DNA from: Adhaeribacter aquaticus DSM 16391
Lineage (GTDB): Bacteria > Bacteroidota > Bacteroidia > Cytophagales > Hymenobacteraceae
Assembly: GCF_000473365.1 (NCBI RefSeq)
Contig: NZ_KI421517.1
Span: forward strand, 2,104,745 to 2,168,744
Reading direction: 5' to 3'
Length of the DNA: 64,000 nucleotides
Part shown: piece by piece, positions 37,873 through 41,441 of the stretch
How positions within the stretch are numbered: position 1 is the first letter of the stretch
Layout of the letters: each line of letters begins with the position of its first letter
The notes under the pieces: model-generated
The model's input: only the letters and a program-made list of their open reading frames with translations
Told to the model about the DNA's origin: nothing
Database searches by the model: none
Program-made: the position numbers and the translations under genes

Positions 37873-38481
37873 ATGGCTTTTGAACTTCCTCAACTTCCTT
37901 ATGCTTACGATGCGCTGGAACCACACATCGACCGCCAGACAATGGAAATCCATCATACCAAACACCATCAGGCATATGTAACCAACCTGAACAATGCCAT
38001 TCAGGGAACTGAGCTGGAAGGTAAATCTTTAGAAGAAATTCTGCAGAACATTAGTAAAGCTCCGGCTCCTGTACGCAATAATGGTGGTGGTCATTACAAT
38101 CACTCTTTATTCTGGACATTGCTTTCCCCTAATGGTGGCGGCGAACCAACCGGCCCGGTAGCAGAAGCTATAAATAATGCTTTTGGTTCTTATGAAAAAT
38201 TTAAAGAAGAATTTACCAAAGCTGCTACTACCCGTTTCGGTTCTGGCTGGGCTTGGTTATGCAAAGTAGAAGGTGGTGCGGTACAAATTTGTTCTACTGC
38301 TAATCAGGATAACCCTTTAATGGATATTGAAGGCCACTGCGGTGGTACGCCAATATTAGGATTAGATGTTTGGGAGCATGCTTATTATCTTAAATATCAG
38401 AACCGTCGTCCGGACTACATAGGAGCCTTTTATAATGTTATTAACTGGGACGAAGTAAATCGTCTTTACACTGCAGGTTAA
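37873..38481 (+). CDS. superoxide dismutase, Fe/Mn family
   Basis: 202 aa, the full family length. The metal ligands are visible: His in [12 protein letters not shown], His in NHSLFW, and the Asp/His pair in [14 protein letters not shown]. It turns superoxide into hydrogen peroxide and oxygen in the cytosol. The metal (iron or manganese) cannot be read with certainty. It begins from ATG after AAAATAAAACT, a typical Bacteroidota leader, and ends in a long terminator. Confidence 0.95.
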
Positions 38482-38498
38482 TAAATCTGAAATCCTTT

Positions 38499-38550
38499 AT
38501 TTAAAATAAAAAGCCCCATCAAAATTTTGATGGGGCTTTTTATTTTAAAT
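38499..38550. terminator. bidirectional terminator after superoxide dismutase
   Basis: A perfect 26-bp palindrome with no spacer (arms 38499-38524 and 38525-38550, core AAGCCCCATCAAAA), with A and T runs on either side of the G/C core. Confidence 0.92.
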
Positions 38551-38595
38551 AAATTAACAAAAAATGTTTGGTTTAAAAGATAAATTTTATTTTAA

Positions 38596-38625
38596 TTTGT
38601 GCCATAATACACTTTCCTACTTTTA
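38596..38625 (+). promoter_or_regulatory. predicted promoter of the met leader
   Basis: TTTG (38596-38599) and TACTTTTA (38618-38625), 18 nt apart, match the Bacteroidota primary sigma pattern. The predicted start falls at the first base of the riboswitch P1 stem, which supports both calls. Confidence 0.5.
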
Positions 38626-38632
38626 AGGATTG

Positions 38633-38733
38633 ATTTATAAAGAAGAGGCGAGAGAATAGGCTCTAAGACCCTCTGGCAACCGCAAGCAAACTGAAAGGTG
38701 CCAAATCCTATCCCAACTGAGGGAAATATAAAT
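38633..38733 (+). promoter_or_regulatory. SAM-I (S-box) riboswitch
   Basis: The conserved core is clear: P1 ATTTATA (38633-38639) pairs with TATAAAT (38727-38733). P2 runs from AGAGGCGAGAGAATAGG to CTCT, with the kink-turn bases. P3 starts with CTGGCAACC and closes with AAGGTGCC, followed by AAATCC, and P4 TCCC/GGGA completes it. SAM-I binds S-adenosylmethionine and represses methionine genes. Unusually, no terminator follows. The 3' strand of P1 ends 9 nt before the ATG of a short Cys-rich reading frame, so ligand binding would block initiation there. Confidence 0.92.
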
Positions 38734-38742
38734 TAATTAATA

Positions 38743-38862
38743 ATGAAAAACCACTTTATTGCCCCTAGCCTTTTTGTAGCTAATCCTAGCGTTTTAGCTT
38801 CATTGTGCGTTTCCAGCACCTCTCCCATTAGCTGTTGTTGCTGTTGTATCAGCATGTGCTAA
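38743..38862 (+). CDS. 39-codon Cys-rich leader reading frame before metY
   Basis: ATG at 38743, stop TAA at 38860. The 39-residue product has seven Cys, five of them in a row (C31-C35), then ISMC at the end. It starts MKNHFIAPSL and has no resemblance to a folded protein. It lies between a SAM riboswitch and the O-acetylhomoserine sulfhydrylase gene, where cysteine supply matters. The likely role is a regulatory leader peptide: ribosome stalling at the Cys codons when Cys-tRNA is scarce would alter RNA folding before metY. This is inference. It is too short to be found by ordinary gene callers. Confidence 0.65.
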   Translation: MKNHFIAPSLFVANPSVLASLCVSSTSPISCCCCCISMC

Positions 38863-38948
38863 GAGCATTCTACGAAATAAAGTTTCTTCGAACTTAATGC
38901 CAGCTAATAAAGAGCAGGCCCGGGTATAACTTTTTCATTTAACCTTAA

Positions 38949-40292
<1,344 letters not shown>

Positions 40293-40412: not shown

Positions 40413-41441
40413 ATGAGTCAGGAAGTTTTAACGTACCCGTACCCATTTAACCTGGAGTGTGGGCAAAGTTTACCCGAGCTCCAGATTACGTATCATACTT
40501 ACGGGAAATTAAATCCTGAAAAAAATAACGTGGTGTGGGTGTGTCATGCCCTAACCGCAAATTCTGATGTACTGGATTGGTGGAAAGGCTTATTTGGGGA
40601 TAATAGTTTATATAATGCAGAAGAATATTTTATAGTTTGTGCTAATATTCTAGGCTCTTGTTACGGTACTACTGGTCCTTTGTCCATGAATCCGGAAACT
40701 GGCCAGCCGTATTACCAAAATTTTCCGGCTATCACCATTCGCGACATGGTGCAGGCGCACGAATTACTTCGCCAGCACCTGGAAATAAATCAAATTCACA
40801 CGGTAATAGGAGGCTCTTTAGGGGGGCAACAGGCAATGGAGTGGGCTATTCAGAAACCAACCATTATTCAGAACTTAATTATTGTCGCCACTAATGCTTA
40901 TCATTCTCCGTGGGGCATTGGTTTTAATGAAGCTCAACGCATGGCCATTCAGGCCGATCCTACTTTTTACCAGAATACCCCAGACGGCGGCAGAAATGGA
41001 CTGAAAGCAGCCCGGGCCATGGCATTATTAAGCTATCGAAACTACGATACGTATACCAAAACCCAACGCGAAGAAGACTTAAATAAAACCGACAATTACA
41101 AAGCTAGCTCTTACCAAAAATATCAGGGAGAAAAACTGGTTAATCGTTTTGATGCTTATGCCTATTTCTCACTGAGTAAAACCATGGACTCCCATAATGT
41201 GGGGCGTAACCGTGGCAGTGTAGAGGCCGCATTAGCCCAAATAAAAGCGAAAACTTTAGTTATTGGTATTAATTCGGATGTTTTGTTTCCGGTTTCAGAA
41301 CAAAAGTTCTTGGCAGCCAATATTAAAAATGCGGTTTATGTAGAAATTGATTCTTTTTACGGACATGACGGATTTTTGATTGAAACCCCCAAGCTTACTC
41401 AACTTATTGAATCTTTCTATGAATTACCAGTGGCAAAATAA
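40413..41441 (+). CDS. metX: homoserine O-acetyltransferase
   Basis: 342 aa from the ATG at 40413 (a TTG 21 bp earlier is not needed). Alpha/beta hydrolase fold with S135 in GGSLGGQQAMEW as nucleophile. The homoserine-binding segment WVCHALTANSDVLDWW and the final Asp/His (GINSDVLFP, GHDGFL) are family marks. It acetylates homoserine from acetyl-CoA, the first committed step to methionine. A succinyltransferase with the same fold cannot be fully excluded. It lies 121 bp after metY in the same unit, so metY and metX supply and use O-acetylhomoserine together. Confidence 0.93.
   Translation: MSQEVLTYPYPFNLECGQSLPELQITYHTYGKLNPEKNNVVWVCHALTANSDVLDWWKGLFGDNSLYNAEEYFIVCANILGSCYGTTGPLSMNPETGQPYYQNFPAITIRDMVQAHELLRQHLEINQIHTVIGGSLGGQQAMEWAIQKPTIIQNLIIVATNAYHSPWGIGFNEAQRMAIQADPTFYQNTPDGGRNGLKAARAMALLSYRNYDTYTKTQREEDLNKTDNYKASSYQKYQGEKLVNRFDAYAYFSLSKTMDSHNVGRNRGSVEAALAQIKAKTLVIGINSDVLFPVSEQKFLAANIKNAVYVEIDSFYGHDGFLIETPKLTQLIESFYELPVAK

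Follow-up and report, generated by a model that had tools for sequence, protein, structure and literature searches.

Mycobacteria reportedly carry leaderless short open reading frames (ORFs) with poly-Cys that act as a cysteine-responsive attenuator; they were reported by Canestrari in 2020, belong to another phylum and are not known to involve a riboswitch. To our knowledge, the control of sulfur assimilation in Bacteroidota has been little studied. The mgtA and corA leaders of Salmonella and E. coli combine a Mg2+-responsive RNA with a codon-sensitive upstream ORF (uORF; MgtL or CorL), and Rho-dependent termination has been reported for them (PMC11552253, in excerpt). A leader with tandem Cys codons, uORFC-8-2, precedes cysS in Rhodobacterales (PMC8632094, in excerpt), and the B12 riboswitch of M. 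tuberculosis ppe2 controls a translated uORF that the downstream gene requires (PMC11260477, in excerpt). Tandems of SAM-I and a Met T-box respond to two inputs including SAM, with metX and metY among their targets (PMC9481103, in excerpt). Leader-peptide attenuation has also been proposed for Flavobacterium, ahead of amino-acid operons (PMC9723704, in excerpt). Among the titles and abstract openings listed in searches of mainly open-licence literature, none described SAM-I in tandem with a Cys-codon leader. Here we analyze such an arrangement in 64,000 nucleotides of DNA from Adhaeribacter aquaticus DSM 16391 (the window).

The SAM-I aptamer and the leader frame upstream of metY

Rfam indicated a SAM-I aptamer (RF00162) at positions 38632 to 38734 of the forward strand, on which the promoter elements, leader, metY and metX described below are also located, with a score of 69.9 bits (E = 2.8e-14) against a gathering score of 44.4 bits. 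It was the sole match in the window to reach gathering score, and no T-box was found by the same standard. A complete SAM-I core had been claimed in an earlier, sequence-only reading of the locus, and the score of 69.9 bits places the element within the family. The P1 helix could be extended to 12 pairs (10 Watson-Crick and 2 G-U) between a 5′ strand at 38628 to 38639 (GATTGATTTATA) and a 3′ strand at 38727 to 38738 (TATAAATTAATT), the latter ending 4 nt 5′ of the leader ATG, a spacing that is kept in relatives. The gap between P1 and the ATG had been put at 9 nt; measured from the extended P1 it is 4 nt, and measured from the end of the Rfam match it is 8 nt; the earlier coordinates were correct to within a few bases.

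Possible promoter elements were identified by eye upstream of the aptamer. The TTTG at 38567 to 38570 is a possible −33 element by its likeness to the Bacteroidota −33 consensus. A possible −7 element at 38592 to 38599 (TTAATTTG) has one mismatch to the −7 consensus TAnnTTTG quoted in PMC9723704 (in excerpt). The window was also scanned with a sigma-70 promoter consensus, which is unsuited to Bacteroidota. Farther upstream, a perfect 30-nt palindrome at 38510 to 38539, with TTATTTT immediately past it, is located 3′ of what we take to be a superoxide-dismutase-like gene. The palindrome is probably the terminator of that gene and was not listed by the terminator scan.

The ATG at 38743 opens a 39-codon frame, 38743 to 38862, that encodes MKNHFIAPSLFVANPSVLASLCVSSTSPISCCCCCISMC, with Cys at positions 22, 31 to 35 and 39. 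Frames at the same position were found in 81 nonredundant loci, one of which, from Akkermansia, was judged to be due to chance. The five consecutive Cys codons (31 to 35) occupy 38833 to 38847, and a 98-nt spacer, 38863 to 38960 (C, 20.4%; G, 14.3%), separates the leader stop from metY. The metY gene (O-acetylhomoserine sulfhydrylase, 38961 to 40292) scored 674.5 bits against an NCBIfam cutoff of 495.1 (TIGR01326), and metX (homoserine O-acetyltransferase, 40416 to 41441) scored 351.5 bits against a cutoff of 331 (PRK00175) but fell under the cutoff of TIGR01392 (371 of 500). The metX start at ATG 40416 was chosen by eye, and the listed frame begins at TTG 40392. The terminator scan indicated no terminator-like site in 38400 to 39100. 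The frame with its Cys at C31 to C35, the metY start 98 bp past the leader stop and the absence of a terminator between them had each been claimed before, and all were found as described. The leader thus has one mark of an attenuator, a short ORF rich in codons for an amino acid of the pathway, and the other mark, an intrinsic terminator or antiterminator 3′ of the leader, was absent from the window.

The pattern (TGY)5 occurred at five distinct places in the 5.17-Mb genome, and only the window's copy belonged to a frame complete from start to stop and situated ahead of a gene. Two of the other four copies were inside genes and two had no in-frame start codon; the reversed pattern was absent from the genome. 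We reject chance as the source of the Cys run on the basis of this count and of the contrast in frames between Bacteroidota and other phyla given below.

Two further SAM-I elements are present in the genome. One of these (L001, G000:C1:972014-972114) is located immediately 5′ of the start of a gene named by eye as a metB/metZ-like PLP enzyme, with no leader between them. The L001 aptamer is nearly identical to that of the window, and the distance from P1 to the start codon is almost equal. The third element (L003) precedes a gene named by eye as metH-like and is without a Cys leader. Within the genus, SAM-I was present in all eight genomes, one of which is 78% complete, and in each it was followed by a Cys-containing leader of 36 to 40 residues and then by a metY-like gene. 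Five Cys in a row were found in four of the leaders, CCCSC in one, CC plus CC in one and a single CC in two, and the remainder of the peptide drifts. One genus member (G005) and A. rhizoryzae (L148) have identical leaders. The expectation that the Cys run would be kept while the rest drifts held largely in the genus, in the family and across five orders, but the length of the run ranges from CC up to nine Cys, and three of the eight genus members have only CC.

Distribution of the leader and the genes behind it

To classify SAM-I loci, one script was applied to 141 of them (Rfam-derived loci plus 40 regions chosen by hand), sorting each by P1 type and by the presence of a short frame with at least three Cys in the last 16 residues. 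The set consists mainly of best-scoring matches from related genomes, and its members are not independent of one another. Over all 141, a Cys leader was found in 42 of 50 loci with a UUUAUA P1 5′ strand, 1 of 58 with xUUAUC, 1 of 30 unclassified and none of the last 3. Because 15 of the hand-chosen regions were picked for a short match resembling L048, a known Cys-leader locus, counts are also given without the whole hand-chosen batch to which these 15 belong: 27 of 34 for UUUAUA and 1 of 55 for xUUAUC. The sole xUUAUC leader, L240, was judged spurious. The longest Cys run in 42 leaders from the Rfam route was at least four in 21, three in 14, two in 6 and one in 1. Leaders in genera g3 (which we take to be, probably, Hymenobacter) and g6 mostly start with GTG, and a g6 leader (L257) is identical to that of Solirubrum (L132).

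Eight UUUAUA loci were exceptions. Two of them, L263 with CCC and L241 with CC, carry these Cys in frames that the filter missed; L001 is without a leader, L041 is degenerate, and no leader was found at L247. The remaining three, L054, L068 and L072, have metY leaders of 31 to 51 residues that belong to other families and are without a Cys run, as though the leader outlasts the cysteine input. In a class-wide sample taken by hand, neither of two UUUAUA loci passed the filter, one being L241 with its CC and the other L247.

A second SAM-I class in the same bacterial family has CUUAUC in P1 (L019 to L022, L028, L029, L032, L039, L040 and L042 to L045). Its members have a T run past the aptamer and no Cys leader, and a terminator consisting of a hairpin plus the T run was seen by eye in L019, L028 and L032. 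The genes behind L032, L042, L044 and L045 encode an odd N-terminal extension with a common CCL motif, beyond which the L032 product appears by eye to be cysteine-synthase-like.

Named genomes were scanned for a SAM core followed at a set spacing by five Cys codons, with the reading frame left free, and at least 119 stretches were returned. As the pattern requires the Cys run, what is informative in these stretches is the frame, the start position and the taxonomy. Stretches were called leader-like when an in-frame ATG was present 55 to 105 nt past the core and the peptide was 28 to 50 residues long, which was true of 67 of the 119 among the matches listed. Leader-like stretches, again among the matches listed, made up 65 of 70 in Bacteroidota, 1 of 47 in other named phyla and 1 of 2 unassigned; the orders named were Cytophagales, Sphingobacteriales, Chitinophagales, Saprospirales and Flavobacteriales. 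Thirty-seven of the 67 were put through Rfam, which indicated SAM-I in 36 of 36 apart from Akkermansia and none in the leader-like Akkermansia locus (L130). Among 19 of the 52 non-leader-like loci, Rfam indicated SAM-I in one, the GTG-started L132, and in none of the other 18. The architecture is present in named strains of Pontibacter, Mucilaginibacter and Adhaeribacter and is therefore directly testable.

A reverse scan searched 59 Cytophagales genomes for Cys5-TAA with no SAM condition. It returned 23 sites in 12 genomes, and a control pattern gave none in each genome listed. Seven of the sites were within one repeat array (G217:C5:11211-14270), in which Cys5-TAA recurs at multiples of 234 bases, six times without an in-frame ATG and once at the end of a 76-residue frame. 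Outside the array, nine sites end ATG-started frames of 33 to 49 residues, eight of them behind SAM-I, and none of the seven sites without an ATG was behind SAM-I. The ninth, a 33-residue leader ending in six Cys (L270, genome G207), precedes a gene named by eye as TonB-receptor-like and has no SAM-I, which indicates that a Cys leader can occur on its own. Between that leader and its gene, a strong hairpin was seen by eye, with a T run close to it.

Judged by eye and among the matches listed, the gene behind the 67 leader-like loci was metY in at least 32, cysH in 5, sulfite-reductase-like in 4, an ATP-grasp gene in 3, metX in 2 and ferredoxin in 2. One gene of each kind was checked against NCBIfam. 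The window's metY, the cysH of L073 and the ferredoxin of L106 passed a curated cutoff, and the MetX of L105 fell just under its own (326.6 of 331). The names of the sulfite-reductase-like L088 product (best family NirA, 245 of 523) and of the ATP-grasp L125 product (RimK, 62 of 143) hold at the family level only, because their scores are well below cutoff. In Pontibacter, cysH-, cysD- and cysN-like frames follow a leader in that order (L151; by eye), and genome G254 has four Cys leaders with metY-, sulfite-reductase-, TonB-receptor- and cysH-like genes downstream (by eye).

A RimK-like ATP-grasp enzyme is encoded behind SAM-I and poly-Cys leaders at L035, L046, L125, L162 and L175 in Pontibacter and its kin, and this position suggests that the enzyme may be tied to sulfur metabolism. 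A TonB-dependent-receptor-like gene follows SAM-I and a poly-Cys leader at L121 (Thermoflexibacter) and at L287, where the leader peptides are identical; its product is a candidate sulfur-compound transporter.

Leader anatomy and the output step

Leader anatomy was compared over the 81 nonredundant leaders, which come mostly from the pattern scan (67 of 94 source leaders) and include the Akkermansia one. The median leader was 38 residues long, with about 32 residues before the Cys run and 0 to 6 after it. Of 74 leaders in which the distance could be measured, 53 had the start codon 10 to 12 nt past the P1 motif, distances being good to about 1 nt as the motif was matched with alternatives; 7 more leaders were without the motif. 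Over 77 loci the distance from AUG to run was tight (95 ± 12 nt; coefficient of variation, 0.13) and that from run to gene was loose (coefficient of variation, 0.52). A Cys cluster is thus kept at a similar spacing from P1, and other parts of the peptide drift.

Cys was encoded by TGT 266 times and by TGC 169 times. Both codons were used within 68 of the 71 runs that have at least four Cys, most of these loci having come from the run-requiring pattern, and we conclude that the amino acid is kept rather than a DNA repeat, an origin that we reject.

One way in which the Cys codons could matter little is if the leader ORF is simply a translated platform through which SAM-I controls Rho or coupling. 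Such a switch responding to SAM alone would account for the runless metY leaders behind UUUAUA aptamers at L054, L068 and L072, for the half of the 42 Rfam-derived leaders in which the longest run is three or less, and for L001, where SAM-I directly precedes an enzyme start in the same genome. It would not account for the recurrence of Cys clusters at one position in 27 of 34 UUUAUA loci, for the third-base mixing in the 68 runs, which were drawn mostly with the run-requiring pattern, or for the C-terminal run that occurs without SAM-I at L270, and we regard it as improbable.

The poly-Cys peptide might instead be a sensor of metals, thiols or redox state, acting either while still nascent or once finished. 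The C terminus is indeed Cys-rich, and in the copper-responsive CruR (DUF2946) uORF a Cys motif can act via Rho (PMC9426467, in excerpt). CruR has a conserved CXXC and a C-terminal RAPP (PMC9426467, in excerpt), but RAPP was not seen by eye in the window peptide, and CXXC is trivial in any run of four Cys. Moreover, similarity of the pre-run peptide was at the median no higher than that of shuffles, unlike an arrest peptide, with 2.8% of 3,160 pairs above the shuffled 99.5th percentile, and the downstream genes are mostly sulfur genes. We consider a sensor of this type very improbable indeed. Of 10 leader peptides, NCBIfam assigned 9 to no family and gave the tenth a weak match far below cutoff, and on these two grounds a conserved arrest peptide was rejected. 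Related genomes have common leader starts such as MKKGI. Acidic residues were near absent from the leaders (D plus E, 1.8%) and were rare in the other two frames also, which indicates that the bias sits in the RNA.

The leader RNA is rich in C and poor in G. In the window, the part of the ORF before the run (38743 to 38832) is 28.9% C and 14.4% G, and over the class the pre-run leader is 25.6% C and 14.9% G, and 97% of the 77 leaders have more C than G. The corresponding share was 96% in spacers, 70% at gene starts and 42% upstream of the aptamer, and no C/G skew was present in the 5′ regions of 75 other genes taken as controls. The contrast was weaker when SAM-I regions lacking a Cys leader served as the comparison (skew, 0.17 versus 0.095; P = 0.006). 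By a test of composition only, the leaders are C rich and G poor in the manner of Rho leaders of the mgtA type, and rho is encoded in the genome. The composition has the look expected of a Rho-loading region and may reflect one, although composition is not proof.

Alternatively, the position of the ribosome on the Cys run could select among hairpins past the stop codon that set transcription or translation, as in a trp-type attenuator. Overall, RNA past the stop folded better than its shuffles did (mean z, −1.36; P = 2.6e-9; 80 loci), and in Mucilaginibacter-type loci an ACACG/AUACG...CGUGU-type hairpin was seen by eye in 11 of 11 single-sequence folds, with a competing pairing to the Cys codons that can be drawn by eye. 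A structural switch may therefore be used in some lineages. As a general feature, however, pairing between the Cys codons and post-stop RNA was rejected, being no stronger than in shuffles (mean z, −0.22; P = 0.16). The window's own spacer was not unusually folded (z, +0.16), the run-to-gene distance is loose, and RNAalifold on a MAFFT alignment of Mucilaginibacter loci indicated a helix around the Cys codons and, of the post-stop hairpins, recovered the second but not the first. Terminator-like sites were found in 11 of 81 spacers versus 1 to 6 in ten mononucleotide shuffles, and with none in the window an intrinsic terminator was rejected as the general output. We conclude that attenuation by alternative hairpins is unlikely as the general mechanism.

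The gene start region was less structured than shuffles, that is, open. Direct pairing between the leader start and the region before the gene, an idea that came from the window's minimum-energy fold (z of only −1.26), was rejected over 77 loci (mean z, 0.00; P = 0.42), and with a median spacer of 131 nt, coupling by termination and reinitiation is unlikely. We prefer a Rho step over a hairpin switch because of the composition, the presence of rho, the weak pairing of the Cys run, the small number of terminators and the open gene start. Taken by itself, the Rho step is put forward tentatively, at somewhat less than even likelihood.

A two-input model and its relation to known systems

The model that we favor is a two-input leader in which SAM would gate the start of the leader, Cys-tRNA would set how long the ribosome stays, and a Rho-type step would give the output. 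The 3′ strand of P1 is located just 5′ of the start codon of the short ORF, and SAM binding would stabilize P1 and block initiation there. A conserved cluster of Cys codons is located near the leader end, at which the ribosome would slow or stall when Cys-tRNA is scarce; when Cys-tRNA is plentiful, the ribosome would run to the stop and leave. Expression of the downstream sulfur gene would need a ribosome held on the leader. If the leader is unoccupied (SAM high) or quickly cleared (cysteine high), Rho would load on the C-rich, G-poor RNA and terminate transcription before the gene, and the gene would be expected to be expressed only under low levels of both SAM and cysteine. That scarcity of cysteine is the on condition is argued from the cysH and sulfite-reductase-like genes behind the same leader.

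Both inputs had been proposed for the window, and both receive comparative support from sequence. For a SAM gate on the leader start, the support comes from the P1-to-start spacing of 10 to 12 nt in 53 of 74 leaders and from the near-equal spacing at L001. For a cysteine input, it comes from the mixing of TGT and TGC in 68 of 71 runs and from the sulfate-reduction genes downstream. Against the model we count the weaker C-over-G contrast with other SAM-I leaders, the structured RNA past the stop and the 11 of 81 spacers with terminator-like sites, together with the three of eight genus members that have only CC, the runless L054, L068 and L072, and the absence of a filtered leader at both UUUAUA loci of the class-wide sample. 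On balance, the two-input leader is in our judgment reasonably probable.

A broader proposal would be that in much of Bacteroidota the direct target of SAM-I with a UUUAUA/UAUAAA P1 is a leader peptide and not an enzyme, and that a serial SAM and cysteine gate, with Rho as executor, governs the path from sulfate to methionine (cysH-D-N, sulfite reductase, metX and metY). We give this generalization a chance just short of even. If the model is true, a riboswitch and an amino-acid attenuator would act in series, and one RNA would weigh cysteine at the entry and SAM at the end of the path with no protein regulator. The locus would then be a clear test case both for SAM-I gating a leader peptide and for Rho as executor in Bacteroidota.

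The arrangement differs in distinct ways from each of the systems described above. It has in common with the mycobacterial ORFs a poly-Cys run in a short ORF, but the leaderless start is theirs; the window ORF is located behind a full SAM-I aptamer and thus appears not to be leaderless. In ppe2, the output is mainly termination and reinitiation at an overlapping stop and start, and the excerpted text mentions no sensing of an amino acid by the uORF (PMC11260477). In the SAM-I/T-box tandems, the second sensor is a T-box RNA, and nowhere does that paper use the terms leader peptide, uORF or attenuation (PMC9481103). The uORFC-8-2 leader has two Cys codons, an intrinsic terminator and cysS as its target, and a riboswitch is not mentioned in the excerpt (PMC8632094). 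Finally, the mgtA and corA uORFs are located within the switching leader itself, and mgtL operates on Pro and acidic codons (PMC11552253, in excerpt), whereas here a separate SAM-I aptamer is located 5′ of the ORF and the codons are those of Cys, in peptides in which D and E make up 1.8% of residues.
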